DNA of 64,000 nucleotides. Origin: Asterias amurensis (lineage: Eukaryota; Echinodermata; Asteroidea; Forcipulatida; Asteriidae). Of the stretch, positions 17,294-49,922 are shown piece by piece. The stretch lies in assembly GCF_032118995.1 (NCBI RefSeq), contig NC_092666.1:13962501-14026500 (forward strand), given 5' to 3'. The notes below the pieces were generated by a model. It saw nothing but the letters and a program-made list of their open reading frames with translations, made no database searches and was not told where the DNA came from. Numbering within the stretch: the first letter of the stretch is position 1; the number at the start of each line of letters is the position of its first letter. A program made the translations under genes and the position numbers.

Positions 17294-18861
17294 GTAAGTC
17301 TTTCGCTTGAAATTCATATATTGATACCGTGCATGGTAATAATAGCTGGGGGCGTAATACATACAAGAATATTGTTCGCGTCAATTGTTCGCGTCAAGCA
17401 ATATTATTAAGAAAAACTAAAACCAACTGCTGCGTCGACGTTCATCGTAGCCGACTGACAATCTTGGCTCCGGGTAGGCCATGGCTACAGCTGTCGACTA
17501 TTAACTGACCCCTAAATAAATCCCATTAGGCCCATTTCTAGCGATGGATGGTGGCTTAGCTGTACTAAGGCGCAATCTGTAAAATATAATATGTGCTTCT
17601 GCTGCTTTTTTTTCTCTATTTTTTTAAAAATTTATTATAGAGACGCAATTCTTTATTTACAATGTTATTTTGACTCCTTTATTATTATTTAGTCAACGGA
17701 CAGAACATGAACATTTTTAGGCAGTTAAACTTTAAAAATGTGTAGTCGTGTTGTTTTAGCTTTTGGGTGTAACTATAGTTTCATCTATAGTGCGAAGAGG
17801 GACACTCCCGGGTCAGTATCTAAACCTACTGACCCTAATTCTTGGTCAAAGGGGGTTCGACCTGTTCCAGGTCAGTCTAATCTGGAGAGTCGTTTTTAGT
17901 TTAACTGTGATTCTGTCATTTGAACACATCCATAATCATGTGGACACAGCCCAGCTATCATGCATACGTTGGGCCAACGTCGGTGAACGTCGGCAAAGTC
18001 GGCATCAAAAAACGAACGTTGAACAGACGTTGGGAAGGTAGGAGTCAGTTTTTAAACGTTGTACTGACGTTTGTAAACAGTATGAAATACAACAGTCAGA
18101 ATTACAACGTTGTCACAACTTAGTTATGATAGGGGCAACTTAAGACTGGGTTGCTGTAAAAATCGAAGAAGTGGTGGCAGACTTTCAAACATTGATTTCG
18201 TTTAAATTTTGCACAAGTGAAGGCAATCAACCAAAATGTAAAAATAAAGCATAATTTGTGCTTATTACCTTATTTCACATAATTTAGCACTTTTTATGAG
18301 TAAAAATTACCGAAAGTTGAGGGCTTCACTGTGTGAAAACCAAGTAGTGGACCTACCTCTTAGCTGGATATGGTAACTATAGATCCTTAATTTTTCCAAA
18401 AATGCACTTGACAAAAGTACAGTTAATTGTGAAAGGAAGATTCCATTATTTCAAAAAGGGGTGTTTTGAGGAAAAGACAACTTGGGAAATATAGGGGGTT
18501 GCTAAAAAGTGGCATATTTAGGAAGGTTTTGCTTCTAGGCGTGAAAGATAAGATACTGGTCTGTAAGAATTTTAAAAAAAGTTTTACTTTTACATGCTGA
18601 ATTACTTTTTACATGCTGAAAAATTATATGATTGAAAAAACAGGCACACAATATAGCAAAGCAACTTACAAGTATCTAAATATAACTTTCAATTGTATAA
18701 ACGTGGATCACAAAGACATTCTGTTGTATGTTTGTGGTCATTTACGTTTGGCTATAGCACAATTTTCTTGACAAATGGACGTTCACAGCTCTTCGTTTAA
18801 ACGATCAAAAATTTCGTACACGTCCTTAACCCGGCGCACAGGCATCACATAATCAGTGACT

Positions 18862-19541
18862 AAGGGAATCAATGTGTGGTGAAGAGGTTTTCAACTAGTG
18901 GTTTAAACCCAACGAGGCCTGGTTTTTGATAATTTCACTGAGACGAAGTCGAGGTAAATTATCAAGAATCAGGCCTCGGCGGGTTTAAAGTCACCTGGAA
19001 ATAGAATCTTTTTTCTTTCAAACATAAGAGTATATGCTTACGAACAATAAAACAATTTGTTTAGTAATTGTTTGTCACGATTTATATGTTTAACAAATAT
19101 ATAAAGTTGTTTGGGGGCTGACTCCGCCTACCCCTTTTGTGACGTCAATCGAGGCAGACTTTGCCTGCAATGCGTATAGTAAACACACGTGCAAAGTACA
19201 TGTACGTCCAAGTCGTGAGTTGGTACGTTTCAAAAAGTGTTTTTCTGCATTCAGCAGCAATACACCTGGTCGGCATTGCCGGAAAAAAAAACAAAAAAAT
19301 ATTTTTTTGAAACGTAAAAACTCACGTCTTGGTCCGCACATGTACTTTGCAATTGTGTTTACTGTACGCATTACAGGCAAAGTAACATAAGAACTGATTT
19401 TTTTAAACCTTAGTTAACTGTTTATTCACATTCCACTCATCAAAACACATATATTGGTGACAAAAGCTTTATTTTGAAAAAATACCACTTCCAGGTGACT
19501 TTAAACCACTAGTTGAAAACCGATTCAACACACTTTGATTC
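18862..19541. repeat. Foldback element, family 3, about 680 bp
   Basis: The outer inverted arms run GGTTTTCAACTAGTGGTTTA to its complement at about 19,500. Nested inside is a second pair, TTTGCCTGCAATGCG (19,151) against CGCATTACAGGCAAA (19,367), flanking an A-rich centre. The inner pair spans CACGTGCAAAGTACATGTAC. Related pieces lie at 38,055-38,177 and 63,886-64,000. Confidence 0.7.
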
Positions 19542-19696
19542 CCATTCATAAATACCTTTTCGGTCAAAAACATCATCACTTTTTGGTCAAAAAGTAAAAT
19601 AAATGCAAAAATTATAATGTTACATTATTTCTTTCAACACAACACCCCTCCAGCTATGATATGGTAAAGCCCTCCGCCGCCCTCGGGTAAACAACT

Positions 19697-19894
19697 CCTT
19701 ATAAGGGAATGCTGTGCGCGTCACGCGTATTGTATATGGCACAACTGTTTCGGTCGTTGTTCTCGACCAATAGGAATGAAGAAACTGTCTTATAAGAACA
19801 GGTGCAAGGTCGCGTGTCACGCTCATGAATTGACACTTTTTACCGGTCATAAACAAAGGTTTATACACACCCACGTGACGCGCTCTCCACCAAT
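19697..19894 (+). promoter_or_regulatory. Candidate regulatory cluster: CArG box, two CCAAT boxes, E-box
   Basis: A perfect CCTTATAAGG (SRF-type CArG) is at 19,697-19,706, CCAATAGGAATG occurs at 19,767 and 19,890, and CACGTG is at 19,872. A good donor GAG|GTGAGT follows at about 20,235. The cluster is copied with the tandem unit (24,935 and 30,173). As the duplicated TRIM gene has no first exon of its own, this could act as promoter, but the evidence is only motif spacing. Confidence 0.3.
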
Positions 19895-19964
19895 AGGAAT
19901 GGTCTGAGGTATTTATGAATGTACAATTAATGGTTACGAAAATCAATTAATTTCCAAGTTCCTC

Positions 19965-20193
19965 AAAGACACTACACACTATTGGTAACTGTCAAAGACA
20001 AGTCTTCTCACTTGGTATATCTCAACATATGCATAATATCAAATTCGTGGAAAATTACTTCTTTCTCAAAAACAATGAGGGAGCCGTTTCTCACAATGTT
20101 TTATAGTTTAACCTCTCCCCATTAATCGTTACCAAGTAAGGTTTTGTGCAATAATTATTTTGAGTAATTACCAATGGTGTCCACTGCCTTTAA
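19965..20193 (-). repeat. MITE family 1, reversed and shortened copy
   Basis: It reads CAAAGACACTACACACTATT to TGGTGTCCACTGCCTTTAA, with the central palindrome deleted. It is carried in all three tandem units (also 25,203-25,431 and 30,441-30,669). Confidence 0.8.
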
Positions 20194-21919
20194 TGGAACA
20201 TAGCAAGATAACATTAAACCAGCCGAACTAGCTGAGGTGAGTCTTCGAACTATACACTGTATACAATTGAGAGTTATATTTTTATTTTAAGTTGCTTTGC
20301 TTTATTTTATCCTGTTTTTTTTCCAATCAACATCATTGTTCAGCATGTAAGAAATGTCATTTTAGAGAATTATTTTGATCTTGTTTTTGCAAATATTACC
20401 ATGTTTGAGACAGTGTCATTACATGACACAGTTGCCCATTTGTGCTCCCCAGACATGAAAACACAAATAATCGCCCAATCACAAACGAAAGGGAAATATT
20501 TTCTGAAGGAAACTGAAGCCACTACAAACTTTCCTACTACTAATGATGTGCAATGGAAATTTAAAAAGGGACTTTCAACAAAGGAGACGCTGTTCACAGC
20601 GTTTTGTAATGCATTGTCAACAAAGTTTGATACGCTTGGGGTGGGCAGGGGAGGGGGGGGGGGGGTTTAAAATCCAAAACTTAGGTCATTCAAAATATGT
20701 AGTCCACAAGGCTACAGGGTGCTAATGAAAGGTACCGGATTGATGGAAAACTTAAAAAATAAAAGTATTATTTTATTAATGTTATTATTTCAATCTGAAA
20801 AAATAAAACTTCTGTATGCATTTTCTTTTTAGGCTGTACTGTTACTACAGGATACAATTGTATTTCTCAAAAGTTTTTCTCAAAATGGAAGGACCAATAT
20901 TGGCCCAAAATACAACCGAAAGGACAACATTTTGAGACCCCTGGCAAATTGTCAATTAGAATGCCAAAAATAGGGTAAAATTTTGCAATTTTCTAAAGAC
21001 ATGCGCTAATGCTGTTCTAAAAATAGCATAAGGGTAAAAGTTAAAGCAATAATTGTTTGTCTCAAGTAAAACAAAGGACGACCCGTTGTATTGATGTGAA
21101 AGGTTTTATATAAAAAAAAAAATGCGCATTGGCTGGGTGGAGCTGCAATATGCTAACAAAATATCGGCAAAAAATTGGCAAAAAATTGCCAAAGCACAAA
21201 ATAAGCTATTACCATGGCAACGGGCTATGTGGTGATTTCATAGTTTATTTATTTTAAATGCATCTCAAAGCCCTTCCACCCAGAAGGTATTAAAAAACCC
21301 TGATATTTACCTATTAATAATGTATAATTTTTTCCCCTGCAAAAGTGCTAACTTTCCGGCAAAACTGTGTCCGCGCACTTAAAATACCAAAACATTTTAT
21401 TGCATTTTTATGTAGGTCGGTACCTTATCTTCCAATTACACAAGTGTCATAATCCACAACGTGCCACTTTCGGACTTATGGCCCAATTCAATACCCCTGT
21501 TTTTCGCTATTAGATATGACAAAAACACCCCTATTTGAAATAGTGGTTCGATCCAAAGTTGATTGCACACTTAAAAAAAACATTTTTAAAAACATTTTCT
21601 CAAAGAGTAAACATGGTTGTGCAATATGTGTGAAAGAAAAACTTCAACGTTTTCCCCTTTAGACGTACCAGTAATTTCAATTCACCTATATTTCAACACT
21701 TAAAAAAGGTAAAAACTTGGACAACTTGCTGAAAATCTTATTTTGGCCGTAACCATGGCAACCAATGTCTGATATAACTTTTTTTCTCGATTTTTGTGTT
21801 TTGTGTACCCATACCCACTCGTATATGGGGTTTTGCCAAAATCCATTTTTTGAAGTCTGCCAACATTTCAAAAATATCTTTGATTTTTACAGCAACCCAG
21901 TCTTAACGTCGGCTAATAT

Positions 21920-22250
21920 TATGCAGTGAGACATGTCGTTTTTCCAACGTTGGCTCAACGTAGATATAATACGGGTAACCTAATGTCTGCATTCTTAGGT
22001 TGTGCCAACGTTGGGAAATGTTGTGCAGTAATAACCGGTCAATTTCCAAAGTCGGCTCAACGTAGTTATACGGGCAACCTAACGTCTGCATCCTTAGGTT
22101 GTGCCAACGTCAGGAAATGTTGTGCAGTAACAACCGGTCGACTTCCAACGTGGCACAACGTAGTTAAATTATAATGTGGGCAGTCTAACATCGGCGTCCT
22201 ACGGTTGTGCCAACGTCAGGAAATGTTGTACCGTCTAAAGGGCCACTTTC
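21920..22250 (+). repeat. About 105-bp tandem repeat with CCAACGTTGG core, 3 units
   Basis: The series GGTTGTGCCAACGT, GGAAATGTTGTGCAGTAA, ACCGGTCRA and GGCTCAACGTAGTTATA recurs about every 105 bp (21,994, 22,098, 22,204). It belongs to the right palindrome region of the outer element. Confidence 0.75.
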
Positions 22251-23119
22251 CCACCAAGATAATAGTCATACGTTGGGCCAACGTTGGCACAACGTTTAAA
22301 TAAATGCAAATTTGTGGGCGTGATTCAGAAGCGTATATTAGCAATACCAAGAACAAATTTGTACACTCAAAATGCTTTTAAAAAACATTTGAATTTAGAA
22401 GTAAACAATTTTAATTAATAAAGGTGTAAAACCATGACTGGAAAATCAATGACTATGACTATAAAAATACAAGACATGCCGTGCACAAGGGTGTATGGGC
22501 TAGTATAAGTTGTAGATAGAATGTATGTAGTTATTAGTATCATCAATTATTTGTAAATAACATAACTGATAAGTAATAACTAACATACACTAATTATTTG
22601 AATTAATTTCACAGGGCGTTAACTGCATTAAAAGATAATTAATCTCTAAATTATTGTTTTAGATTATTCGTAAGTTGTCCCAACGTTGGCCCAACGCTGT
22701 AAACAAACGTCAATACGACGTCAGCTGCCGAAGTTGGGCCAATTAAAAGATATTATGTTGTCCCAACTTTTAACAAAAACGTCTAACGAACGTTGGACGT
22801 ACAGACGTCGGCAAAAAAGTTGCCGACGTCGGAACGGGGTTGGGCTTACGTTAGCCCAACGTTGGCCCAACGTCCTCGACGTTGGCCCGATGTAAAAAAC
22901 AACGTCACCAAAAACGTCACTTGTCAACGGTTGCCCTACCAAAAATGTGTACGTTTGCCAACGTTGGGCCGACGTATACATGTTAGCTTGGAGATTATGT
23001 GTGAAAACTGACCAGGGATAAGTCGGCCACCACGAGATCAAGATCCGAGTCAAATGTTCATTAATTTTCTTTGGTTGCTAAATCTAGTTTCTAATTTGTT
23101 TTCTTTTTTACTAGGTAAA

Positions 23120-24256
23120 ATGGCGAGTGTATCTACAGTACTCAAGGAAATTGGTCAAGACTTTTTGGAATGTGGTATCTGTTTCGAACGTTACACAAAT
23201 CCCAAAATCCTCAGTTGCGTTCACAGCTTCTGCGAGTTATGTTTGGTTCAATACTATGGCAACCAAAAGGTAAAACCTTGTCCAGTGTGTCAACAGGAGA
23301 CACGACTACCAGTGCCCGGGGGCATCGGTGGCCTCAAGACCAATGGGTTCATAATAACACTGAGGGAAAAAGTCGAGCTCCAGGAGAAGGTTGCCAAACT
23401 ATCAGCCAAAGCACGACGCACTTGTGAATTATGTACTCAGAAGGAGGTTACACATCATTGTTTAAACTGCTCTCAGAATATCTGCCAGGGCTGCATGAAC
23501 ATTCACAGGCGAATCAAAGTTTCAGCTGATCACACAGTCGGAACCTTGAAAGATATTGGCGAGGGAAAGGTTACCCTACCACCAGAGGTACAGAAGGAGT
23601 ATACATGTAACACGCACAAGGGTGAGATCAATCGATTCTACTGTGAGACATGTCATGTCTTGATTTGTCACGTCTGTACTGTTGTAAACCATTGCAAACC
23701 AGAGCATCAGTACATTGATTGCGCCACAGCGTCTTCCAAATATAAGAGGGGTTTTAAAGAACTATTTCCCACCATTACCAATGAAATCAAACATGTTGAA
23801 GAATGTTTAGATATTGCATGCAAAGCTCAGCAACAATTTGAAAGGAAAGTTTCACAAACAGTGCAAGAGGTGAATAAGGGAGCAGATTGGGCGAGGGACA
23901 AAGTGAAAGCCGAACAAGACCGAATTCTTCGAGAGATCCGGGTCCTAAAGGAGGATCGCAGCACAGCATTTGACGAACAAATAAAAACAATGCAATCTTT
24001 GCTTCAGAGGAAGCAAGATACGCTGACCATCGCAAGAGATGTCACAAACAAAGGCTCAGATAGTGACTTTCTGTCTTTATTTCCAATCATCGACCAAGAT
24101 TTGACTTTCTTAAAAAGTAATAAAGTCCCACCTCAGATTGACGCTAGTTTCCACTATCAGCGGCTCGATCAGACTGGTTCCATCAAACTAGGCAACCTGG
24201 AAGTCGGAACTAAGAGGAAGCTGCGTGGTCACCAAGAAATATCTTTTTTCTTCTAA
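23120..24256 (+). CDS. Truncated TRIM protein (RING, two B-boxes, coiled coil), copy a
   Basis: The coding exon starts after the acceptor TTTTACTAG at 23,114; the start codon at 23,120 is the one shared by all copies. It encodes 378 residues. The RING is C3HC4 (C18, C21, C33, H35, C38, C41, C54, C57). B-box 1 is C102 to H138 and B-box 2 is C163 to H196, with all zinc ligands present. The coiled coil is about 215-320. The propeller is missing: after KLRG the frame enters transposon-derived sequence, adds HQEISFFF and stops. It would be a cytoplasmic RING-type E3 ubiquitin ligase able to dimerise but lacking the substrate- or RNA-binding C-terminal domain. The protein is identical to copy b. 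The truncation is caused by the 5,238-bp tandem duplication. Expression would need first exon copy II (17,122-17,293) or another promoter. Whether it is functional is unknown; all zinc ligands are intact. Confidence 0.85.
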   Translation: MASVSTVLKEIGQDFLECGICFERYTNPKILSCVHSFCELCLVQYYGNQKVKPCPVCQQETRLPVPGGIGGLKTNGFIITLREKVELQEKVAKLSAKARRTCELCTQKEVTHHCLNCSQNICQGCMNIHRRIKVSADHTVGTLKDIGEGKVTLPPEVQKEYTCNTHKGEINRFYCETCHVLICHVCTVVNHCKPEHQYIDCATASSKYKRGFKELFPTITNEIKHVEECLDIACKAQQQFERKVSQTVQEVNKGADWARDKVKAEQDRILREIRVLKEDRSTAFDEQIKTMQSLLQRKQDTLTIARDVTNKGSDSDFLSLFPIIDQDLTFLKSNKVPPQIDASFHYQRLDQTGSIKLGNLEVGTKRKLRGHQEISFFF

Positions 24257-27200
24257 ACATAAGAGTATATGCTTACGAACAATAAAACAATTTGTTTAGT
24301 AATTGTTTGTCACGATTTATATGTTTAACAAATATATAAAGTTGTTTGGGGGCTGACTCCGCCTACCCCTTTTGTGACGTCAATCGAGGCAGACTTTGCC
24401 TGCAATGCGTATAGTAAACACACGTGCAAAGTACATGTACGTCCAAGTCGTGAGTTGGTACGTTTCAAAAAGTGTTTTTCTGCATTCAGCAGCAATACAC
24501 CTGGTCGGCATTGCCGGAAAAAAAAAAACAAACATATTTTTTTGAAACGTAAAAACTCACGTCTTGGTGGTCCGCACATGTACTTTGCAATTGTGTTTAC
24601 TGTACGCATTACAGGCAAAGTAACATAAGAACTGATTTTTTTAAACCTTAGTTAACTGTTTATTCACATTCCACTCATCAAAACACATATATTGGTGACA
24701 AAAGCTTTATTTTGAAAAAATACCACTTCCAGGTGACTTTAAACCACTAGTTGAAAACCGATTCAACACACTTTGATTCCCATTCATAAATACCTTTTCG
24801 GTCAAAAACATCATCACTTTTTGGTCAAAAAGTAAAATAAATGCAAAAATTATAATGTTACATTATTTCTTTCAACACAACACCCCTCCAGCTATGATAT
24901 GGTAAAGCCCTCCGCCGCCCTCGGGTAAACAACTCCTTATAAGGGAATGCTGTGCGCGTCACGCGTATTGTATATGGCACAACTGTTTCGGTCGTTGTTC
25001 TCGACCAATAGGAATGAAGAAACTGTCTTATAAGAACAGGTGCAAGGTCGCGTGTCACGCTCATGAATTGACACTTTTTACCGGTCATAAACAAAGGTTT
25101 ATACACACCCACGTGACGCGCTCTCCACCAATAGGAATGGTCTGAGGTATTTATGAATGTACAATTAATGGTTACGAAAATCAATTAATTTCCAAGTTCC
25201 TCAAAGACACTACACACTATTGGTAACTGTCAAAGACAAGTCTTCTCACTTGGTATATCTCAACATATGCATAATATCAAATTCGTGGAAAATTACTTCT
25301 TTCTCAAAAACAATGAGGGAGCCGTTTCTCACAATGTTTTATAGTTTAACCTCTCCCCATTAATCGTTACCAAGTAAGGTTTTGTGCAATAATTATTTTG
25401 AGTAATTACCAATGGTGTCCACTGCCTTTAATGGAACATAGCAAGATAACATTAAACCAGCCGAACTAGCTGAGGTGAGTCTTCGAACTATACACTGTAT
25501 ACAATTGAGAGTTATATTTTTATTTTAAGTTGCTTTGCTTTATTTTATCCTGTTTTTTTTCCAATCAACATCATTGTTCAGCATGTAAGAAATGTCATTT
25601 TAGAGAATTATTTTGATCTTGTTTTTGCAAATATTACCATGTTTGAGACAGTGTCATTACATGACACAGTTGCCCATTTGTGCTCCCCAGACATGAAAAC
25701 ACAAATAATCGCCCAATCACAAACGAAAGGGAAATATTTTCTGAAGGAAACTGAAGCCACTACAAACTTTCCTACTACTAATGATGTGCAATGGAAATTT
25801 AAAAAGGGACTTTCAACAAAGGAGACGCTGTTCACAGCGTTTTGTAATGCATTGTCAACAAAGTTTGATACGCTTGGGGTGGGCAGGGGAGGGGGGGGGG
25901 GGGTTTAAAATCCAAAACTTAGGTCATTCAAAATATGTAGTCCACAAGGCTACAGGGTGCTAATGAAAGGTACCGGATTGATGGAAAACTTAAAAAATAA
26001 AAGTATTATTTTATTAATGTTATTATTTCAATCTGAAAAAATAAAACTTCTGTATGCATTTTCTTTTTAGGCTGTACTGTTACTACAGGATACAATTGTA
26101 TTTCTCAAAAGTTTTTCTCAAAATGGAAGGACCAATATTGGCCCAAAATACAACCGAAAGGACAACATTTTGAGACCCCTGGCAAATTGTCAATTAGAAT
26201 GCCAAAAATAGGGTAAAATTTTGCAATTTTCTAAAGACATGCGCTAATGCTGTTCTAAAAATAGCATAAGGGTAAAAGTTAAAGCAATAATTGTTTGTCT
26301 CAAGTAAAACAAAGGACGACCCGTTGTATTGATGTGAAAGGTTTTATATAAAAAAAAAAATGCGCATTGGCTGGGTGGAGCTGCAATATGCTAACAAAAT
26401 ATCGGCAAAAAATTGGCAAAAAATTGCCAAAGCACAAAATAAGCTATTACCATGGCAACGGGCTATGTGGTGATTTCATAGTTTATTTATTTTAAATGCA
26501 TCTCAAAGCCCTTCCACCCAGAAGGTATTAAAAAACCCTGATATTTACCTATTAATAATGTATAATTTTTTCCCCTGCAAAAGTGCTAACTTTCCGGCAA
26601 AACTGTGTCCGCGCACTTAAAATACCAAAACATTTTATTGCATTTTTATGTAGGTCGGTACCTTATCTTCCAATTACACAAGTGTCATAATCCACAACGT
26701 GCCACTTTCGGACTTATGGCCCAATTCAATACCCCTGTTTTTCGCTATTAGATATGACAAAAACACCCCTATTTGAAATAGTGGTTCGATCCAAAGTTGA
26801 TTGCACACTTAAAAAAAACATTTTTAAAAACATTTTCTCAAAGAGTAAACATGGTTGTGCAATATGTGTGAAAGAAAAACTTCAACGTTTTCCCCTTTAG
26901 ACGTACCAGTAATTTCAATTCACCTATATTTCAACACTTAAAAAAGGTAAAAACTTGGACAACTTGCTGAAAATCTTATTTTGGCCGTAACCATGGCAAC
27001 CAATGTCTGATATAACTTTTTTTCTCGATTTTTGTGTTTTGTGTACCCATACCCACTCGTATATGGGGTTTTGCCAAAATCCATTTTTTGAAGTCTGCCA
27101 ACATTTCAAAAATATCTTTGATTTTTACAGCAACCCAGTCTTAACGTCGGCTAATATTATGCAGTGAGACATGTCGTTTTTCCAACGTTGGCTCAACGTA

Positions 27201-29466
27201 GATATAATACGGGTAACCTAATGTCTGCATTCTTAGGTTGTGCCAACGTTGGGAAATGTTGTGCAGTAATAACCGGTCAATTTCCAAAGTCGGCTCAACG
27301 TAGTTATACGGGCAACCTAACGTCTGCATCCTTAGGTTGTGCCAACGTCAGGAAATGTTGTGCAGTAATAACCGGTCGACTTCCAACGTGGCACAACGTA
27401 GTTAAATTATAATGTGGGCAGTCTAACATCGGCGTCCTACGGTTGTGCCAACGTCAGGAAATGTTGTACCGTCTAAAGGGCCACTTTCCCACCAAGATAA
27501 TAGTCATACGTTGGGCCAACGTTGGCACAACGTTTAAATAAATGCAAATTTGTGGGCGTGATTCAGAAGCGTATATTAGCAATACCAAGAACAAATTTGT
27601 ACACTCAAAATGCTTTTAAAAAACATTTGAATTTAGAAGTAAACAATTTTAATTAATAAAGGTGTAAAACCATGACTGGAAAATCAATGACTATGACTAT
27701 AAAAATACAAGACATGCCGTGCACAAGGGTGTATGGGCTAGTATAAGTTGTAGATAGAATGTATGTAGTTATTAGTATCATCAATTATTTGTAAATAACA
27801 TAACTGATAAGTAATAACTAACATACACTAATTATTTGAATTAATTTCACAGGGCGTTAACTGCATTAAAAGATAATTAATCTCTAAATTATTGTTTTAG
27901 ATTATTCGTAAGTTGTCCCAACGTTGGCCCAACGCTGTAAACAAACGTCAATACGACGTCAGCTGCCGAAGTTGGGCCAATTAAAAGATATTATGTTGTC
28001 CCAACTTTTAACAAAAACGTCTAACGAACGTTGGACGTACAGACGTCGGCAAAAAAGTTGCCGACGTCGGAACGGGGTTGGGCTTACGTTAGCCCAACGT
28101 TGGCCCAACGTCCTCGACGTTGGCCCGATGTAAAAAACAACGTCACCAAAAACGTCACTTGTCAACGGTTGCCCTACCAAAAATGTGTACGTTTGCCAAC
28201 GTTGGGCCGACGTATACATGTTAGCTTGGAGATTATGTGTGAAAACTGACCAGGGATAAGTCGGCCACCACGAGATCAAGATCCGAGTCAAATGTTCATT
28301 AATTTTCTTTGGTTGCTAAATCTAGTTTCTAATTTGTTTTCTTTTTTACTAGGTAAAATGGCGAGTGTATCTACAGTACTCAAGGAAATTGGTCAAGACT
28401 TTTTGGAATGTGGTATCTGTTTCGAACGTTACACAAATCCCAAAATCCTCAGTTGCGTTCACAGCTTCTGCGAGTTATGTTTGGTTCAATACTATGGCAA
28501 CCAAAAGGTAAAACCTTGTCCAGTGTGTCAACAGGAGACACGACTACCAGTGCCCGGGGGCATCGGTGGCCTCAAGACCAATGGGTTCATAATAACACTG
28601 AGGGAAAAAGTCGAGCTCCAGGAGAAGGTTGCCAAACTATCAGCCAAAGCACGACGCACTTGTGAATTATGTACTCAGAAGGAGGTTACACATCATTGTT
28701 TAAACTGCTCTCAGAATATCTGCCAGGGCTGCATGAACATTCACAGGCGAATCAAAGTTTCAGCTGATCACACAGTCGGAACCTTGAAAGATATTGGCGA
28801 GGGAAAGGTTACCCTACCACCAGAGGTACAGAAGGAGTATACATGTAACACGCACAAGGGTGAGATCAATCGATTCTACTGTGAGACATGTCATGTCTTG
28901 ATTTGTCACGTCTGTACTGTTGTAAACCATTGCAAACCAGAGCATCAGTACATTGATTGCGCCACAGCGTCTTCCAAATATAAGAGGGGTTTTAAAGAAC
29001 TATTTCCCACCATTACCAATGAAATCAAACATGTTGAAGAATGTTTAGATATTGCATGCAAAGCTCAGCAACAATTTGAAAGGAAAGTTTCACAAACAGT
29101 GCAAGAGGTGAATAAGGGAGCAGATTGGGCGAGGGACAAAGTGAAAGCCGAACAAGACCGAATTCTTCGAGAGATCCGGGTCCTAAAGGAGGATCGCAGC
29201 ACAGCATTTGACGAACAAATAAAAACAATGCAATCTTTGCTTCAGAGGAAGCAAGATACGCTGACCATCGCAAGAGATGTCACAAACAAAGGCTCAGATA
29301 GTGACTTTCTGTCTTTATTTCCAATCATCGACCAAGATTTGACTTTCTTAAAAAGTAATAAAGTCCCACCTCAGATTGACGCTAGTTTCCACTATCAGCG
29401 GCTCGATCAGACTGGTTCCATCAAACTAGGCAACCTGGAAGTCGGAACTAAGAGGAAGCTGCGTGG
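24229..29466 (+). repeat. 5,238-bp tandem duplication unit, copy 2
   Basis: This unit is practically identical to copy 1: over the parts compared by eye I saw only a handful of differences (for example one base near 27,359, and A-run and poly-G lengths). It includes a second foldback element piece, the reversed MITE, the CArG cluster and the second truncated TRIM gene. Confidence 0.9.
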
Positions 29467-29494
29467 TCACCAAGAAATATCTTTTTTCTTCTAA
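28358..29494 (+). CDS. Truncated TRIM protein (RING, two B-boxes, coiled coil), copy b
   Basis: This is an exact tandem copy of the gene at 23,120: same acceptor (28,352), same start, same 378 residues, same zinc ligands and the same transposon-encoded HQEISFFF end. No untranslated first exon lies between copy a and copy b, so b can only be reached by splicing over a from 17,293 or from a promoter inside the unit. A tandem assembly artefact cannot be excluded from the sequence alone. Confidence 0.85.
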   Translation: MASVSTVLKEIGQDFLECGICFERYTNPKILSCVHSFCELCLVQYYGNQKVKPCPVCQQETRLPVPGGIGGLKTNGFIITLREKVELQEKVAKLSAKARRTCELCTQKEVTHHCLNCSQNICQGCMNIHRRIKVSADHTVGTLKDIGEGKVTLPPEVQKEYTCNTHKGEINRFYCETCHVLICHVCTVVNHCKPEHQYIDCATASSKYKRGFKELFPTITNEIKHVEECLDIACKAQQQFERKVSQTVQEVNKGADWARDKVKAEQDRILREIRVLKEDRSTAFDEQIKTMQSLLQRKQDTLTIARDVTNKGSDSDFLSLFPIIDQDLTFLKSNKVPPQIDASFHYQRLDQTGSIKLGNLEVGTKRKLRGHQEISFFF

Positions 29495-32400
29495 ACATAA
29501 GAGTATATGCTTACGAACAATAAAACAATTTGTTTAGTAATTGTTTGTCACGATTTATATGTTTAACAAATATATAAAGTTGTTTGGGGGCTGACTCCGC
29601 CTACCCCTTTTGTGACGTCAATCGAGGCAGACTTTGCCTGCAATGCGTATAGTAAACACACGTGCAAAGTACATGTACGTCCAAGTCGTGAGTTGGTACG
29701 TTTCAAAAAGTGTTTTTCTGCATTCAGCAGCAATACACCTGGTCGGCATTGCCGGAAAAAAAAAAAAAAACATATTTTTTTGAAACGTAAAAACTCACGT
29801 CTTGGTGGTCCGCACATGTACTTTGCAATTGTGTTTACTGTACGCATTACAGGCAAAGTAACATAAGAACTGATTTTTTTAAACCTTAGTTAACTGTTTA
29901 TTCACATTCCACTCATCAAAACACATATATTGGTGACAAAAGCTTTATTTTGAAAAAATACCACTTCCAGGTGACTTTAAACCACTAGTTGAAAACCGAT
30001 TCAACACACTTTGATTCCCATTCATAAATACCTTTTCGGTCAAAAACATCATCACTTTTTGGTCAAAAAGTAAAATAAATGCAAAAATTATAATGTTACA
30101 TTATTTCTTTCAACACAACACCCCTCCAGCTATGATATGGTAAAGCCCTCCGCCGCCCTCGGGTAAACAACTCCTTATAAGGGAATGCTGTGCGCGTCAC
30201 GCGTATTGTATATGGCACAACTGTTTCGGTCGTTGTTCTCGACCAATAGGAATGAAGAAACTGTCTTATAAGAACAGGTGCAAGGTCGCGTGTCACGCTC
30301 ATGAATTGACACTTTTTACCGGTCATAAACAAAGGTTTATACACACCCACGTGACGCGCTCTCCACCAATAGGAATGGTCTGAGGTATTTATGAATGTAC
30401 AATTAATGGTTACGAAAATCAATTAATTTCCAAGTTCCTCAAAGACACTACACACTATTGGTAACTGTCAAAGACAAGTCTTCTCACTTGGTATATCTCA
30501 ACATATGCATAATATCAAATTCGTGGAAAATTACTTCTTTCTCAAAAACAATGAGGGAGCCGTTTCTCACAATGTTTTATAGTTTAACCTCTCCCCATTA
30601 ATCGTTACCAAGTAAGGTTTTGTGCAATAATTATTTTGAGTAATTACCAATGGTGTCCACTGCCTTTAATGGAACATAGCAAGATAACATTAAACCAGCC
30701 GAACTAGCTGAGGTGAGTCTTCGAACTATACACTGTATACAATTGAGAGTTATATTTTTATTTTAAGTTGCTTTGCTTTATTTTATCCTGTTTTTTTTTC
30801 CAATCAACATCATTGTTCAGCATGTAAGAAATGTCATTTTAGAGAATTATTTTGATCTTGTTTTTGCAAATATTACCATGTTTGAGACAGTGTCATTACA
30901 TGACACAGTTGCCCATTTGTGCTCCCCAGACATGAAAACACAAATAATCGCCCATCACAAACGAAAGGGAAATATTTTCTGAAGGAAACTGAAGCCACTA
31001 CAAACTTTCCTACTACTGATGATGTGCAATGGAAATTTAAAAAGGGACTTTCAACAAAGGAGACGCTGTTCACAGCGTTTTGTAATGCATTGTCAACAAA
31101 GTTTGATACGCTTGGGGGTGGGCAGGGGAGGGGGGGGGGTTTAAAATCCAAAACTTAGGTCATTCAAAATATGTAGTCCACAAGGCTACAGGGTGCTAAT
31201 GAAAGGTACCGGATTGATGGAAAACTTAAAAAATAAAAGTATTATTTTATTAATGTTATTATTTCAATCTGAAAAAATAAAACTTCTGTATGCATTTTCT
31301 TTTTAGGCTGTACTGTTACTACAGGATACAATTGTATTTCTCAAAAGTTTTTCTCAAAATGGAAGGACCAATATTGGCCCAAAATACAACCGAAAGGACA
31401 ACATTTTCCGACCCCTGGCAAATTGTCAATTAGAATGCCAAAAATAGGGTAAAATTTTGCAATTTTCTAAAGACATGCGCTAATGCTGTTCTAAAAATAG
31501 CATAAGGGTAAAAGTTAAAGCAATAATTGTTTGTCTCAAGTAAAACAAAGGACGACCCGTTGTATTGATGTGAAAGGTTTTATATAAAAAAAAAAATGCG
31601 CATTGGCTGGGTGGAGCTGCAATATGCTAACAAAATATCGGCAAAAAATTGGCAAAAAATTGCCAAAGCACAAAATGAGCTATTACCATGGCAACGGGCT
31701 ATGTGGTGATTTCATAGTTTATTTATTTTAAATGCATCTCAAAGCCCTTCCACCCAGAAGGTATTAAAAAACCCTGATATTTACCTATTAATAATGTATA
31801 ATTTTTTCCCCTGCAAAAGTGCTAACTTTCCGGCAAAACTGTGTCCGCGCACTTAAAATACCAAAACATTTTATTGCATTTTTATGTAGGTCGGTACCTT
31901 ATCTTCCAATTACACAAGTGTCATAATCCACAACGTGCCACTTTCGGACTTATGGCCCAATTCAATACCCCTGTTTTTCGCTATTAGATATGACAAAAAC
32001 ACCCCTATTTGAAATAGTGGTTCGATCCAAAGTTGATTGCACACTTTAAAAAAACATTTTTAAAAACATTTTTTGAAAGAGTAAACATGGTTGTGCAATA
32101 TGTGTGAAAGAAAAACTTCAACGTTTTCCCCTTTAGACGTACCAGTAATTTCAATTCACCTATATTTCAACACTTAAAAAAGGTAAAAACTTGGACAACT
32201 TGCTGAAAATCTTATTTTGGCCGTAACCATGGCAACCAATGTCTGATATAACTTTTTTTCTCGATTTTTGTGTTTTGTGTACCCATACCCACTCGTATAT
32301 GGGGTTTTGCCAAAATCCATTTTTTGAAGTCTGCCAACATTTCAAAAATATCTTTGATTTTTACAGCAACCCAGTCTTAACGTCGGCTAATATTATGCAG

Positions 32401-32613
32401 TGAGACATGTCGTTTTTCCAACGTTGGCTCAACGTAGATATAATACGGGTAACCTAATGTCTGCATTCTTAGGTTGTGCCAACGTTGGGAAATGTTGTGC
32501 AGTAATAACCGGTCAATTTCCAAAGTCGGCTCAACGTAGTTATACGGGCAACCTAACGTCTGCATCCTTAGGTTGTGCCAACGTCAGGAAATGTTGTGCA
32601 GTAATAACCGGTC
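29467..32613 (+). repeat. 5,238-bp tandem duplication unit, copy 3 (truncated)
   Basis: The same order of markers is present up to the ACCGGTCGACTT of the palindrome region, then the unit jumps into TRIM exon 2. It shows more differences from units 1 and 2 than they show from each other (for example near 30,953, 31,018, 31,407 and 32,046-32,078), so it is older or was exchanged with another locus. The TRIM N-terminal exon part is absent. Confidence 0.9.
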
Positions 32614-33218
32614 GACTTTCTGTCTTTATTTCCAATCATCGACCAAGATTTGACTTTCTTAAAAAGTAATAAAGTCCCACCTCAGATTGACGCAAGTTTC
32701 CACTATCAGCGGCTCGATCAGACTGGTTCCATCAAACTAGGCAACCTGGAAGTCGGAACTAAGTGGAAGCTGCGTGGTGACGTCAGTCGGAATTGGATGG
32801 CGGGGGAGCTTTGTTATGATGTAGCAGCTCTGCCAGGTGACAGACTTGCAGTAACTACCGCATCCAGGCCCGGTTCCCATGATAGAAAATTCGTTATTTG
32901 CAGTACTGATGGTGACTTTGAGAAAACTATTCCAGTGAAGGGACGTAAGTGTTCCAATGAACAACATGTTACTCTCTCAACAGGAGGGCTCTGTATTGTA
33001 AGCTTCGAATAGCTTGTTTGAAACAAAGATGCAATGACGTTTGTAATTACAATCTTTGCGTCAAAGACGTGACGGGGGGGGGGGGGGGGCAAAAATAAAA
33101 CAAGAATGATTCTTCGATAAATGGGCTGATATTTGATGGTTGACATGTCGTCTGCTCCCGACTGCGAGGGCGGTGTGGGTTTGATTGCTGATCGAATCAC
33201 CAATTTTAAGTGTGTCAA

Positions 33219-33600
33219 TTAAAGCCATTGGATACGTTCGGTAAACAGTTTTGTCCAAAGGCCCGTCACTTCGTGTATCACAACTTATAAATATATATAT
33301 TATATATAAAATAACAAACCTGTGACAATTAGGCTCAATCGGTCATCGGTGTCGGGAGATAACGGAAAACCCACCCTTGTTTCCGCACGTTTCGCCGTGT
33401 CATGCCATGTGTTTAAAATAAATCCGTAATTCTCGATATCGAGAATTGATAATTGTTTAAATGTTTTCTTAAAAAGTAAAGCATTTCCTGTAATAATATT
33501 TCAAGAGAATTCTTTCACCATTACCTTCTGTAAACCCTGTAAGTTATTTGTAAATCTGTGAACTTTTTTATTTCTGTTCCGAAAGTGTCAAATGGCTTTA
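33219..33600. repeat. Foldback MITE, family 4, in TRIM intron 2
   Basis: The ends are TTAAAGCCATTGGATACGTT and, inverted, TAAAGCCATTTGACACTTTC, with an inner palindrome TTCTCGATATCGAGAA. The same insertion sits at 41,025-41,405. Intron 2 of the genes at 49,923 and 60,555 lacks it. Confidence 0.8.
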
Positions 33601-34226
33601 CGTGCGTTAATTTAGATTTTCATGTAATCAATAGAGGTTTTTTTAATTCTATTTATTTTCTCATGTCAGGTTGTCTAAATGGCATAACATCTTTTCGCAA
33701 TGGCTTAATGGTGGCTGCTGAGGACGGATGTGTCCAGATCTACAACGAGGATTTCGCAACGACCTCTCAGCTTCAATATGGAGACAAAAAGAGTGGGACA
33801 AAGTAAAACTCATATTATATTAAATTAATTGCATTCTCCCAATATAAGTCTTCTTCCTCCTCAAATACTGTTTTTTCCTCGAAATCAATTTTCGTTCCCT
33901 CAAAAAAACTTCCTTCCCAAAAATGCTAATTATTTTGTTTTCCTCGAAATAAATTTTGCTCATTTTGATTTCAGCCACACCAAACAGCGCAAGCGCCCAT
34001 AACAGGATGGAAAAAGCACATCAATTTTTAAAGTGCTTAACTTCTGTCGTGTATTTTTGTGATATTTTTAATAAACCTTACAGAATTGAATTTAATTGAA
34101 ATGAAACTACATGAAATAGTTCGTTCCTCTGAATAACAATTCGAAGGAACGAATTATTTTGGCGGCTACCGATGCCTTTTTTATTTTCAAGTAAAATTAC
34201 GAGATCGCCGTAGAACTACAGCCTGC

Positions 34227-34420
34227 TGATGTGTCTGTCTGTCTGTGTGTCTGTTTGTCTGTTTGTCTGTTTGTCTGTTTGTCTGTTTGTCTGCTTGTCT
34301 GCTTGTCTGCTTGTCTGCTTGTCTGCTTGTTCGTTCGTTCGTTCGTTCGTTCGTTCGTTTGTTTGTTTGTTTGTTTGTTTGTGTGGGTGTGGGTGTGTGT
34401 GTGTGTGTTTGTTTGTTTGT
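34227..34420 (+). repeat. Tetranucleotide microsatellite in TRIM intron 3
   Basis: A graded array runs TCTG/TTTG, then TCTG/CTTG, then TTCG, then TTTG, then TG repeats. Its copy at 42,030-42,205 is shorter by about 25 bases. Long open frames across it are repeat artefacts. Confidence 0.9.
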
Positions 34421-35051
34421 TGATATCAAAGCTAAGGAAATATAATTTCGAAGGAATGAAATAATTAATTTTTAACCATCGTATAATTTCTTTTGCAATT
34501 GTCTCTTTAGAGGAGATTCCACGATGTTGGACGAGTTGCTTGATGATTTATTCGATCCATACACGTGCATTTGTGTGAAGAAAGACGGCACTATTTTTGT
34601 AGGACATTCCAAGGAGAACGTGATAACCTTAATACATCGTCCTGGCGGTAAGCCAATATACACTACCCGTATATCACTGCCGAAGTCACCGCAGTTCTTG
34701 GCCACTGACTGCAATGACAGAGTGGTTGTCAGTTGTGGTACTGACCACCAAGTTATTGTTATCGATGACCAAGGTGCTACCCTAGTCACCATCAAACCCA
34801 CCATGAATGGTCATCCTGTCAACTACTGCAGGGGCGTATGCTGCGACGGCTCAGACATCTACGTTGCAGTTTGCAACCGTTCTGGACATATCCATCGTTA
34901 TGATGGTGATGGGAAGTTCCTCACCTGTATTATTCAAGGTCTGCACTGTCCAAGGGGAATCACATTCACGGAAGATGGGCAACACTTGGCAGTAATAGAC
35001 GATGCAGAAGTACAACTTTACCATAGGGTATCAGTCAACTACGTTACCTAA

Positions 35052-37613
35052 TTAGCTGTAAGGCTAACATGGTATTTTTTTCCAATGCAACAAAAGACCA
35101 TTATCATGCTGTCACCATCTTCGTCATGTACCTTGTTTCATTTGCAATAAAAGATACTATTACTCATTGTACAAAAGGGAACCAGACTTTTTCTCCTTCC
35201 AGCCTCGGTTTGGTTGCTTTGATTTGAATGGGAACAAAATCAAGATGGCTGCACCATGATATGTAGATTTGCTTAATAAAGACAATCTTTGTGAAAGAGG
35301 TTCAATGATGAACACAACCCAAGAGAGCTGAGGGAAGGATTTGAGTTGTTCAATGTGACATTAGGCAAAAATTTGATACTCCTCTTAAAATGTATCAAGA
35401 TTACATTTGTAAACAAGATTAGATTGTGGGATTGGGGGAAACAACGAGGCAAGGAGTTTTGAAAAGATAGGCTTACGTTTGGAAAAAAAAAACTGTTTGA
35501 GTGTTTTTTTGTTCTATCTCAGCAAAGCAAGAGTGAACGGATGAGAAGAAGCAGAAAGCCTGTTTTTAAGCTCAAACATCCCGATATGAGGAACCAGGTC
35601 GCACGCACTGGTCGCACATTTTGCTTGTCTTAATAATTATTTCATAACATTATCATTAATAGATATGCCTGTCCATATAGCTGTGCCTGTCCATTGCTGT
35701 ACGTGATATCCAAAAAAGATCATGCATTTTAAACGTACCATATGGTAAATCGAAAAATCTGTAATTCATGAAAAACTTCCTCTCATTTGCCTCGCCATTG
35801 ACACTAAAAATCCAATCACTTCAGAGACTTTAAAGACACTAGACACTATTGGTAATTGTCAAAGACTAGTCTATCTCAATATTATATGCATAATATAACA
35901 AACCTGTGAAAATTTGAGCTTAGTTGGTCGTCGAAGTTGCGAGATAATAATGAAAAAGAAAAAACACCCTTGGCACACAATGGTCACACGAAGTTGTGTG
36001 CCTTCAGATGCTTGATTTCGAGACCTCACATTCTAAATCTGAGGTCTCGAAATCTACTTCTCTCTCAAAAACTATATTACTTCAGAGGGAGCCGTTTCTC
36101 ATCACAATGTTTCATACTATCAACCTCTCCCCATTACTCGTAATCAAGAAAGGTTTTATGATCATAATTATTTTGAGTAATTACCAATAGTGTTCACTGC
36201 CTTTAAACATTTTAAGCAATTTATACCGTGTTCGTACACTTTCAGCTGGTATTGTAAATATTTACATGATATTTTTGAGTGCATTTTAACATATTCACGA
36301 GATGAAATCAAACAATTAGTATTTTGTAATGTCCACAAGTACATTCTAGTAATAGTACTAAAATCAAAATAGTCCAGAAACTTGATTGAAGTGTTTTCCT
36401 TTTTATCAATGTATACATCATACAGTGAGGCAGTGGATACTAAGCAGAATTTGCAACTTTGCACGGTGGGGGTATCGTCACATGAGGTCTGTGGTGACAC
36501 CATGTACATACATCTCTAAAGTGGTTTTGAGATTAATCTTTTATGAGAATGTAGCTCGGAACAATTAATATAGTTAGCTTCCGTGTTTATTTACTTGGGT
36601 GTTATCTGTACACTTCAGTAATTTGTAAACTTGTATTTAAAGTGTTTTAATTGCCTAATTTGTAACAGATGTTAAATTTGCATCGGGGATAATTTGTATT
36701 TTTTTTAGGGGCTTCAAGGCACTGGACACCATTGGTAATTGTTAAAGACCAGTATTCTCACTTGGTGTATCCCAACATATGCATCAAATAACAAATCTGT
36801 GAAAGTTTAGACTCCATTGGTCGTAAAAGTTGCGAAAGAATAATGGACGAAAAAACACCATTGACACACAAGTTGAATGCTTACAGATGCCTTGAACTTG
36901 AGACCTCAGCTGGTGTCTTGAATTCAATTCAGTTTTACTCACACATCAGATGATTTGAAAAGTTGGCTGTAAATTATGTTGTCAATACACTCTCAATAAC
37001 TCCGGGTCAGAATTGACCTGGATCCGGATCCTGTGATGGGCACTGACCCATTTTTGAGTCAATATGACCCTGAACACGTGTCAAGTGACCCTTGAATGAG
37101 TGAAACTAACGCAGAATCCGAGTTGTAAACAATGTTCCGGATCAACCTAACATGTAAAATGTGTCCGTACACATAGAATCCGGGTAAATCCTAATCCGGG
37201 TGTTTGGAGTTCCTGTTAACGAGTATCAAATGTGAATAACGTTTAGCAAAGTAATAAAATGCGCACTGTATGTATTCTGTCAATCGTTGGTTTCTTTACC
37301 TAAAATATCACTGACTGTGCCAGGTATAAAACAAAAGTTGAGTGAGATCTCAACACATATTCACCAAGTTGCATTAGTTAAAGACACTGATACTATTGGT
37401 AATTGCCAAAGACTAGTCTTCACAGTTGGTGTATCTCAACATATGCATAAAATAACAAATCTGTGAAAATTTGAGCTCAATCGGTCGTCGAAGTTGCGAG
37501 ATATTAATGAAAGAAACTCAGATTTAGACCTCAGATTTAGAACTTGAGGTCTCGAAATCAACCATCTAAACGTAACACAACTTCGTATGACAAGGGTGTT
37601 TTTTCTTTCATTA
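35052..37613 (+). repeat. Flank block III: TRIM 3' flank, duplicated at 42,830-45,532
   Basis: This block has the poly-A signal, the GCTTAATAAAGACAATCTTT segment, three MITE family 1 derivatives (35,829-36,206 full; about 36,714-36,920 partial; about 37,377-37,613 rearranged) and the GATCCTGTGATGGGCACTGA segment. It is nearly identical to 42,830-45,532, apart from about 110 bp missing near 35,366. Together with 32,614-35,051 it makes a duplication of about 5 kb. No gene is seen in it. Confidence 0.8.
35829..36206. repeat. MITE family 1, full copy (reversed orientation)
   Basis: It starts TTAAAGACACTAGACACTAT and ends TAGTGTTCACTGCCTTTAA, with an inner palindrome around CTCACATTCTAAATCTGAG. 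Confidence 0.8.
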
Positions 37614-39479: not shown

Positions 39480-42400
39480 ATGGCGAGTGTATCTGCAGTA
39501 CTCAAGGAAATTGGTCAAGACTTTTTGGAATGTGGTATTTGTTTTGAACGTTACACAAATCCCGAAATCCTCAGTTGCGTTCACAGCTTCTGTGAAAAAT
39601 GTTTGGTTCAATACTATGGCAACCAAAAGGTAAAACCTTGTCCAGTGTGTCAACAGGAGACACGACTACCAGTGCCCGGGGGCATCGGTGGCCTCAAGAC
39701 CAATGGGTTCATAATAACACTGAGGGAAAAAGTCGAGCTCCAGGAGAAGGTTGCCAAACTATCAGCCAAAGCACGACGCACTTGTGAATTATGTACTGAG
39801 AAGGAGGTTACACATCATTGTTTAAACTGCTCTCAGAATATCTGCCAGGGCTGCATGAACATTCACAGGCGAATCAAAGTTTCAGCTGATCACACAGTCG
39901 GAACTTTGAAAGATATTCGCGGGGGAAAAGTTACCCTACCACCAGAGGTACAGAAGGAGTATACATGTAACACGCACAAGGGTGAGATCAATCGATTCTA
40001 CTGTGAGACATGTCATATCTTGATTTGTCACGTCTGTACTGTTGTAAACCATTGCAAACCCGAGCATCAGTACATTGATTGCGCATCAGCTTCTTCCAAA
40101 TATAAGAGGGGTTTTAAAGTACTATTTCCCACCATTACCAATGAAATCAAACATGTTGAAGAATGTTTAGATCTTGCATGCAAAGCTCAGCAACAATTTG
40201 AAAGGAAAGTTTCACAAACAGTGCAAGAGGTGAATAAGGGAGCAGATTGGGCGAGGGACAAAGTGAAAGCCGAACAAGACCGAATTCTTCGAGAGATCCG
40301 GGTCCTAAAGGAGGATCGCAGCACAGCATTTGACGAACAAATAAAAACAATGCAATCTTTGCTTCAGAGGAAGCAAGATACGCTGACCATCGCAAGAGAT
40401 GTCACAAACAAAGGCTCAGATAGTGACTTTCTGTCTTTATTTCCAATCATCGACCAAGATTTGACTTTCTTAAAAAGTAATAAAGTCCCACCTCAGATTG
40501 ACGCAAGTTTCCACTATCAGCGGCTCGATCAGACTGGTTCCATCAAACTAGGCAACCTGGAAGTCGGAACTAAGTGGAAGCTGCGTGGTGACGTCAGTCG
40601 GAATTGGATGGCGGGGGAGCTTTGTTATGATGTAGCAGCTCTGCCAGGTGACAGACTTGCAGTAACTACCGCATCCAGGCCCGGTTCCCATGATAGAAAA
40701 TTCGTTATTTGCAGTACTGATGGTGACTTTGAGAAAACTATTCCAGTGAAGGGACGTAAGTGTTCCAATGAACAACATGTTACTCTCTCAACAGGAGGGC
40801 TCTGTATTGTAAGCTTCGAATAGCTTGTTTGAAACAAAGATGCAATGACGTTTGTAATTACAATCTTTGCGTCAAAGACGTGACGGGGGGGGGGGCAAAA
40901 ATAAAACAAGAATGATTCTTCGATAAATGGGCTGATATTTGATGGTTGACATGTCGTCTGCTCCCGACTGCGAGGGCGGTGTGGGTTTGATTGCTGATCG
41001 AATCACCAATTTTAAGTGTGTCAATTAAAGCCATTGGATACGTTCGGTAAACAGTTTTGTCCAAAGGCCCGTCACTTCGTGTATCACAACTTATAAATAT
41101 ATATATTATATATAAAATAACAAACCTGTGACAATTAGGCTCAATCGGTCATCGGTGTCGGGAGATAACGGAAAACCCACCCTTGTTTCCGCACGTTTCG
41201 CCGTGTCATGCCATGTGTTTAAAATAAATCCGTAATTCTCGATATCGAGAATTGATAATTGTTTAAATGTTTTCTTAAAAAGTAAAGCATTTCCTGGAAT
41301 AATATTTCAAGAGAATTCTTTCACCATTACCTTCTGTAAACCCTGTAAGTTATTTGTAAATCTGTGAACTTTTTTATTTCTGTTCCGAAAGTGTCAAATG
41401 GCTTTACGTGCGTTAATTTAGATTTTCATGTAATCAATAGAGGTTTTTTTAATTCTATTTATTTTCTCATGTCAGGTTGTCTAAATGGCATAACATCTTT
41501 TCGCAATGGCTTAATGGTGGCTGCTGAGGACGGATGTGTCCAGATCTACAACGAGGATTTCGCAACGACCTCTCAGCTTCAATATGGAGACAAAAAGAGT
41601 GGGACAAAGTAAAACTCATATTATATTAAATTAATTGCATTCTCCCAATATAAGTCTTCTTCCTCCTCAAATACTGTTTTTTCCTCGAAATCAATTTTCG
41701 TTCCCTCAAAAAAACTTCCTTCCCAAAAATGCTAATTATTTTGTTTTCCTCGAAATAAATTTTGCTCATTTTGATTTCAGCCACACCAAACAGCGCAAGC
41801 GCCCATAACAGGATGGAAAAAGCACATCAATTTTTAAAGTGCTTAACTTCTGTCGTGTATTTTTGTGATATTTTTAATAAACCTTACAGAATTGAATTTA
41901 ATTGAAATGAAACTACATGAAATAGTTCGTTCCTCTGAATAACAATTCGAAGGAACGAATTATTTTGGCGGCTACCGATGCCTTTTTTATTTTCAAGTAA
42001 AATTACGAGATCGCCGTAGAACTACAGCCTGCTGATGTGTCTGTTTGTCTGTTTGTCTGTTTGTCTGTTTGTCTGTTTGTCTGCTTGTCTGCTTGTCTGC
42101 TTGTCTGCTTGTTCGTTCGTTCGTTCGTTCGTTCGTTCGTTTGTTTGTTTGTTTGTTTGTGTGGGTGTGGGTGTGTGTGTGTGTGTTTGTTTGTTTGTTG
42201 ATATCAAAGCTAAGGAAATATAATTTCGAAGGAATGAAATAATTAATTTTTAACCATCGTATAATTTCTTTTGCAATTGTCTCTTTAGAGGAGATTCCAC
42301 GATGTTGGACGAGTTGCTTGATGATTTATTCGATCCATACACGTGCATTTGTGTGAAGAAAGACGGCACTATTTTTGTAGGACATTCCAAGGAGAACGTG

Positions 42401-49134: not shown

Positions 49135-49922
49135 GTAAGTCTTTGGCTTGAAATTCATAATATATTGATACCGTGGTAATAATAGTTGGGGACGTTAGAA
49201 GATGCGTATTTGCGTCAAGACTGCAATTTTTACGAAAAACTAAAACCAACTGCTGCGTCGACGTTCATCGTAGCCGACTGACGCTCTTGGCCCCGGGTGG
49301 GCCATTGCTACAGCTGTCGACTAACTGACCCTAAAACAATCCCGTTAAGCCCATTCCTAGCGATGGATGGTGACTTACTGGCCTGTTTAAGCGTACTCTG
49401 TATAGATCATGTGATTTTTGCGTTCTATGTCTAATTATGGAGATGCGTTTCATTATTTACAGTTTTTGACTCCATTGTTATTGTTTACTCAACGGATATA
49501 GAGGTTGAACATGAAAGTATTATGGCAGTTGAACTTCCAAACTGTGCAGTCGTTTTTTTTTTTTTTTTGGGTTTTCTTTTTGTTGGGGGGGGGGGTGTAG
49601 GCCTAACTACATGTATAGTTTCATCTATAGCGCGAAAAAGGACACTTCCAGGTCAGTAGACCCACTGACCCTAATTCTGGATCTTAGGGGGTTCGACCCG
49701 TTCCACGTCAGTCTAACATGGAGAGTGGTTTTAAGTGTAAGCTTAACTGTGATTCTGTCATTTGGACACATCCATAATCATGTTGACACAGACTATTTGT
49801 GAAAACTGACCCGGGATAAGTTGGCCACCACGAGATCAAAATCGGGGTCAAATGTTCATCTTTTTCTTTGGTTGCTAAATCTAGTTTCTAATTTGTTTTA
49901 TTTGTATTTTCTACTAGGTAAA

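Follow-up and report, generated by a model that had tools for sequence, protein, structure and literature searches.

A probable young and unstable partial tandem duplication in a TRIM gene cluster of the starfish Asterias amurensis

A previous study on primates described young TRIM clusters that vary in copy number, in which segmental duplications, compared over 170 kb, carry TRIMs of the B30.2 type (PMC3228819, in the part of that report used here). Tandem duplications ascribed to microhomology-mediated break-induced replication have a short microhomology at the join and extra base changes nearby, at a scale far larger than that considered below; according to the available portion of the source, new human events measured ~1 Mb and variants were counted within 4 Mb (PMC9609164). 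The gamma and delta isoforms of TRIM5, which arise by splicing, keep the tripartite motif without the C-terminal recognition domain (PMC1906832, as excerpted). A window of 64,000 nucleotides from the starfish Asterias amurensis (contig C19:13962501-14026500 of assembly GCA_032118995.1; positions below are those of the window) contains a TRIM gene cluster that invites comparison with all three. With the primate clusters it shares a tandem arrangement, very recent near-identical duplications and a check for gene conversion; it differs in its 5.2-kb partial unit, in its propeller-type TRIMs and in a breakpoint at a miniature inverted-repeat transposable element (MITE). Like the human events, it has short microhomology at the join with base changes close by, although the unit here is 5.2 kb, the changes lie within 30 bp, and the mechanism is one that we infer. 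Unlike the TRIM5 isoforms, the starfish N-terminal half was formed by gene breakage, and its product is predicted from sequence.

We report herein that one gene of this cluster, named P1, lies in an array that probably arose as a young and unstable partial tandem duplication, through the order of events proposed below. All events seen are of known kinds, and the locus is instructive rather than surprising. At base level and within ~17 kb it gives an unusually clear view of how a TRIM cluster in an invertebrate evolves by birth and death: a transposon breakpoint, a duplication, an unequal crossover, a deletion and gene conversion can each be read. If copy number varies, the joins could serve as markers in population resequencing data; otherwise the array would represent ordinary genome turnover. 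Among the matches listed in a literature search, judged by title and the start of the abstract, no paper on this locus was found.

Self-comparison of the window revealed a period of 5,238 bp that links three units, followed by a remnant of the exon in which the first two end:

18990..24227, plus strand: unit 1 (A), from the MITE through the N-terminal half of the TRIM exon
24228..29465, plus strand: unit 2 (H), a hybrid; its front ~340 bp are unit-3-like except at 24529, and the rest is unit-1-like except at 27369
29466..32613, plus strand: unit 3 (B), running to the deletion join
24227..24229, plus strand: join 1, exon to MITE, with GT microhomology
29465..29467, plus strand: join 2, the same in sequence as join 1
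32614..32618, plus strand: deletion join in unit 3, with GACTT microhomology; lacks 1,925 bp that units 1 and 2 have

The identity of the units over kilobases far exceeds what chance would be expected to give. The period of 5,238 bp had been noted in an initial annotation of this DNA, and it stands, with units beginning at 18,990, 24,228 and 29,466. The joins proposed there (24,228/24,229 and 29,466/29,467) fall inside the ambiguity caused by the 2 bp (GT) that exon and MITE have in common, which leaves the exact join base ambiguous. Its further claim that the unit starts in a nested transposon and ends in a TRIM exon agrees with the breakpoints found: the left one is the second base of the MITE, one base inside its 5' end, and the right one lies inside the TRIM exon carrying the RING and B-box, at a site that is not TTAA.

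The left breakpoint belongs to a nested insertion:

17950..22991, no strand assigned: nested transposon insert of ~5.04 kb, just upstream of the P1 TRIM coding exon and before the predicted 3' splice site
18989..19500, plus strand: MITE of 512 bp, flanked on either side by TTAA, with the inverted ends AGTCACCTGG...CCAGGTGACT

In the paralog P2 the insert site is uninterrupted, in that 17124-17949 aligns with 38528-39352 and 22992-24229 with 39351-40592. The insert is itself composite: the part at 21906-22991 recurs on contigs C4 and C18, and an inner element at ~18140-21906 recurs on C10 and at other loci of the genome searched (491,506,623 bp in 23 contigs). The end of the MITE was placed by means of its other copies. 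With a query that included the flanks, most fetched loci having the 5' part gave matches that began at 18983-18985, and a few gave matches that began at 18997 or later; outside the TTAA the flanks of the fetched copies diverge. Of 27 copies scored by eye, 25 had a left TTAA, 26 a right one and 24 both; in the window, TTAA and the inverted ends lie at 18985-18989 and 19491-19504. MITEs of the piggyBac type are recognized by a TTAA target-site duplication, terminal inverted repeats and the absence of coding capacity, and the element at 18989-19500 is of this type as judged by its TTAA flanks and inverted ends. A 144-codon stop-to-stop frame in the transposon (20236-20670) had no Pfam match. Two copies of the same MITE also occur within 10 kb around a TRIM exon of the same subfamily 1.5 Mb away (C19:12488000-12497999).

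Differences among the units are not spread evenly. Units 1 and 2 differ by eight runs, seven within the first 340 bp and one at 22131 (unit-1 coordinates here and below); units 1 and 3 differ by 20 runs across the 3.15 kb they have in common (17 after merging), and units 2 and 3 by 14 (11 after merging), where merging takes four runs in a G-rich stretch (20646-20655) as one event and the junction columns 22145 and 22147 are excluded. Unit 2 agrees with unit 3 at 18996, 19003, 19018, 19292, 19298 and 19329, then with unit 1 at the ten merged events between 20314 and 21601 inclusive, and again with unit 3 at 22131; at 19294 (24529 in unit 2) it differs from both. This mosaic amounts to three runs across 17 events (P 0.0009 by shuffling, with 19294 and the two junction columns omitted and 20646-20655 entered as one event). 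Comparison with other genomic copies gave unit 1 the ancestral state at 18996, 19018, 19329 and, with less certainty, 19003. It assigned derived states jointly to units 1 and 2 at 21203 and 21601, to unit 3 at 20477, 20542, 20934 and probably 21599, and probably to unit 1 at 22131. No polarity was obtained for the poly-A sites at 19292-19298. Unit 2 thus has the front of the 3' unit and the back of the 5' unit, the pattern of an unequal crossover, and an older A-B pair recombining unequally into A-H-B fits and would explain the mosaic in one step. The near-identity of units 1 and 2 had been put down to a very recent event, to ongoing gene conversion or to a repeat-copying assembly error; recent it is, in the refined sense that it forms part of a mosaic fitting unequal crossing-over of an older pair.

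Unit 3 follows unit 1 to 22139 and then passes, via the 5-bp GACTT, into the exon from 24065. The span lost is 22140-24064, with GACTT at both edges, and ~165 bp of the exon that ends units 1 and 2 reappear past the deletion join, from 32614. The initial annotation described unit 3 as a 3.1-kb partial unit; its extent (29466-32613) holds, but a plain truncation does not, since an internal deletion is followed by resumption of the exon at 32614, and the repeated exon overlap together with the GACTT join rules out a plain partial unit. Also unsupported is the proposal made there that the gene was divided by the duplication. A tandem duplication by itself leaves the final copy intact; here a separate 1,925-bp deletion, with its own microhomology, broke the last gene by removing the N-terminal half of unit 3. 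The frame leading into the remnant from the transposon side runs into stops, and the first in-frame ATG comes after ~60 codons.

Base changes cluster beside the exon-MITE join. On the MITE side of join 1 they lie at 24234-24235, 24240 and 24253-24254, with 3 bp fewer than in unit 1 at the second of these places. Three of the 17 events between units 1 and 3 fall within the first 30 bp past the join, where ~0.16 would be expected under an even spread (P 0.0006, in a test picked after the data were seen). The AAG or TTCT form found in units 2 and 3 was present in none of 25 aligned MITE copies (the script recovered 25 of the 27), and a genome search with the 38-base variant end, allowing up to 3 mismatches, gave matches at the two joins alone. 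These clustered changes are most simply read as the result of error-prone repair at the join.

Past unit 3, the propeller half of P1 has a different history from the units:

32614..35708, plus strand: exon remnant and propeller half of P1, near-identical to P2 40425-43596; donor-like GTAAGTG at 32945

Outside a TGTT microsatellite, P1 32614-35367 and P2 40425-43145 differ by one substitution over ~2.7 kb, plus a 5-base indel in a G run; of nine substitution columns, five in the microsatellite and three at the edge of a 110-bp indel were set aside, and neither the G-run indel nor the microsatellite gaps were scored as substitutions. Past the 110-bp indel a further 341 bp are identical, and farther on divergence climbs to ~3% (53 of 1,738 columns, windows 35860 to 37609). 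On the other side, 1.24 kb of the N-terminal half show 28 columns at which unit 1 and P2 disagree; the paralogs P3, P4 and P5 assign the derived state to P1 in 22 of them and to P2 in the other 6 (the tally was 22, 9 and 1 before four alignment-end columns were set aside). Because the tract is near-identical while its flanks differ by 2-3%, the propeller half would seem to have been homogenised recently, and its near-identity with P2 over 3.1 kb points to recent gene conversion, in either direction. Separately, the region upstream of P1 (17124-17949) shares only 73% identity with its P2 counterpart (38528-39352), against ~98% for the gene bodies; therefore body and flank differ in history.

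The order of events and the repair pathway that we propose run as follows. Nested transposons would have inserted just upstream of the P1 coding exon, and a break or stalled fork may then have arisen at the 5' end of the TTAA-type MITE within them. The MITE end would have been joined, by a 2-bp microhomology, to a site within the P1 exon of either the sister or the homologous chromosome, so that 5,238 bp were duplicated, and base changes would have been introduced next to the new join. The last copy may then have lost its front half by the GACTT-microhomology deletion, a single unequal crossover of the two units would have produced the third, hybrid, middle unit, and the propeller half of P1 would have been homogenised with its neighbour P2 by gene conversion. 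The events look spread over time because units 1 and 3 differ by 17 events, as against one substitution each in the unit 1/2 comparison past the first 340 bp and in the P1/P2 tract outside its microsatellite.

Several points weigh against this history. The data do not fix the order of the later steps, namely the deletion, the unequal crossover and the gene conversion. Two sites can be reconciled with the mosaic only by assuming private changes, a later one in unit 1 at 22131 and one in unit 2 at 24529, which lies in a poly-A run. At 19003 the difference, one of 3 bp, sits in a T/A-rich run whose length varies across the MITE family, and its direction is less sure than those at 18996 and 19018; moreover, the cluster of changes at the join could postdate the duplication. 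The array is known here from assembled sequence alone. Finally, the divergence between A and B could be allelic (heterozygosity was 0.96% in the A. amurensis sample of another study; PMC11090083); absolute dating was dropped and no age is given for that reason.

Among other explanations, a single complex replication-based event, in which template switching would have given rise at once to duplication, deletion and the jump into P2, seems unlikely: although both joins have short microhomologies, base changes lie beside the exon-MITE join and the P2-like tract starts exactly at the deletion join, the 17 merged events that separate units 1 and 3 in 3.15 kb contrast with one substitution in units 1 and 2 past 340 bp and one in the P1/P2 tract, and homology ending at the join would also account for the tract's left edge. 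Slightly less likely is an assembly artefact, in which the true locus has two units and one join and the assembler walked a common stretch twice to give a chimeric middle unit. Unit 2 is indeed almost exactly the front of unit 3 plus the back of unit 1, as a double walk via the ~1-kb common stretch would give, and the array (13.6 kb) exceeds the mean length (12.51 kb) of the high-fidelity (HiFi) reads, whose depth was 22.68x and from which the assembly was made with hifiasm and purge_dups (PMC10625585, in the part available). An over-walked loop, however, would be expected to yield a pure chimera, and unit 2 departs from one at 24529 (weak, as it lies in a poly-A run) and at 27369; moreover, a walk can loop only given at least one join. 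The hybrid is defined within ~1 kb (24565 to 25552) and neighbouring units are distinguished by sites ~5 kb apart; a 12.5-kb read spans such distances with ease, so that reads of ordinary length can place the units in order. We therefore take the array to be real, an artefact being unlikely.

It is improbable that a second MITE had inserted in the TRIM exon and that homologous recombination between two MITEs on different homologs made the duplication. The join does lie at a MITE end, and the MITE front in units 2 and 3 is unlike that in unit 1, but the exon site lacks the TTAA, the MITE's first base and the TTAA are missing at the join, no MITE remnant is found in the exon past unit 3, and the genome search (up to 3 mismatches) gave no further copy with the variant end. 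A MITE insertion in the exon was accordingly rejected as the first step. There is, lastly, only slight reason to suppose that the N-terminal copies were kept by selection as propeller-less TRIMs, for example as inhibitors of intact paralogs. Their open reading frame (ORF) is open and identical in both units, with stop and AATAAA supplied by the MITE, and the gamma and delta isoforms of TRIM5, being devoid of B30.2, behave as dominant negatives (PMC1906832, in the excerpt cited above); the copies are nonetheless too young for a test, and selection after truncation was set aside as a candidate, since units 1 and 2 have the same exon sequence, which leaves nothing to compare. The partial tandem duplication followed by separate later steps is thus preferred.

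The truncated ORFs of the two full units, and the homologous exons of the paralogs in the window, are as follows:

23120..24256, plus strand: N-terminal-half ORF of unit 1, 378 codons; RING, B-box and a probable coiled-coil region
28358..29494, plus strand: N-terminal-half ORF of unit 2, with the same sequence as in unit 1; ATG at 28358
39480..40823, plus strand: intact N-terminal exon ORF of P2; donor-like GTAAGTG at 40756
49790..51032, plus strand: homologous exon of P3
60428..61664, plus strand: homologous exon of P4

The unit 1 ORF ends in HQEISFFF within the MITE, which contributes 8-9 residues and the stop (24254-24256), with AATAAA at 24281. Its RING finger (PF00097, E 1.3e-08, 35 bits against a cut-off of 21) and its B-box (PF00643, E 2.6e-08, 34.3 bits against 24.1, in two stretches) were both recognized. 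The nearest solved relatives are a TRIM3 chain (E 1.8e-21) and a TRIM2 chain (E 3.4e-21), and a chain of Transcription intermediary factor 1-beta matches residues 17-262 in a single stretch; an NCBIfam scan gave only matches far under the cut-off (rad18, CrfC). P2 to P5, on the same chromosome, keep the N-terminal exon without stops. The donor-like GTAAGTG is present in P2, P3, P4, P5 and unit 3, at a position past the ORF ends of units 1 and 2, and the search of unit 1 from 23121 to 24400 for GTAAGT or GTGAGT (weaker donors were not sought) found neither; the unit 2 exon is the same. For these reasons the exon of units 1 and 2 is expected to be a terminal exon. If transcribed, the two ORFs would give RING/B-box/coiled-coil proteins with 8-9 MITE-encoded C-terminal residues. 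In the A lineage, changes counted by single sites are nine nonsynonymous and eight synonymous, over ~870 and 237 sites, respectively; by codon they are eight and eight, two adjacent sites altering one codon. It would be a long shot that the MITE end, as break point, stop and poly(A) signal at once, has yielded propeller-less TRIMs of variable copy number that damp their intact neighbours.

As the initial annotation had it, the two N-terminal-half genes lack a propeller, since propeller-like exons occur only past unit 3. There, the exon at 34476-35048 gave matches to NHL (E 0.0014) and to five further families, propellers for the most part, none of which reached its curated cut-off, and 32608-33009 had no Pfam family match. 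No whole gene is left at P1 today.

An older tandem duplication of ~3.3-3.5 kb lies upstream of P1 (10741-17566), with pieces 89-96% identical; within it, 10956-11049 and 14481-14574 each resemble sequence from the 3' region of P2 (43146-43255), with 91-93% identity; the region 10741-17566 may possibly hold remnants of a further TRIM gene. An identical stretch of 1,125 bp links 56403-57527 to a position 12,656 bp downstream, past the window; both lie upstream of neighbouring TRIM paralogs, and this is likely another gene-conversion tract. Elsewhere in the assembly, contig C23 (16,427 bp) carries COX1, open under the echinoderm mitochondrial code, and two nuclear COX1 copies (C5:658874-660214 and 675294-676634) lie 16,420 bp apart, very nearly the length of that mitochondrial contig; the pair is perhaps a tandem insertion of whole mitochondrial genomes, or a misassembly.

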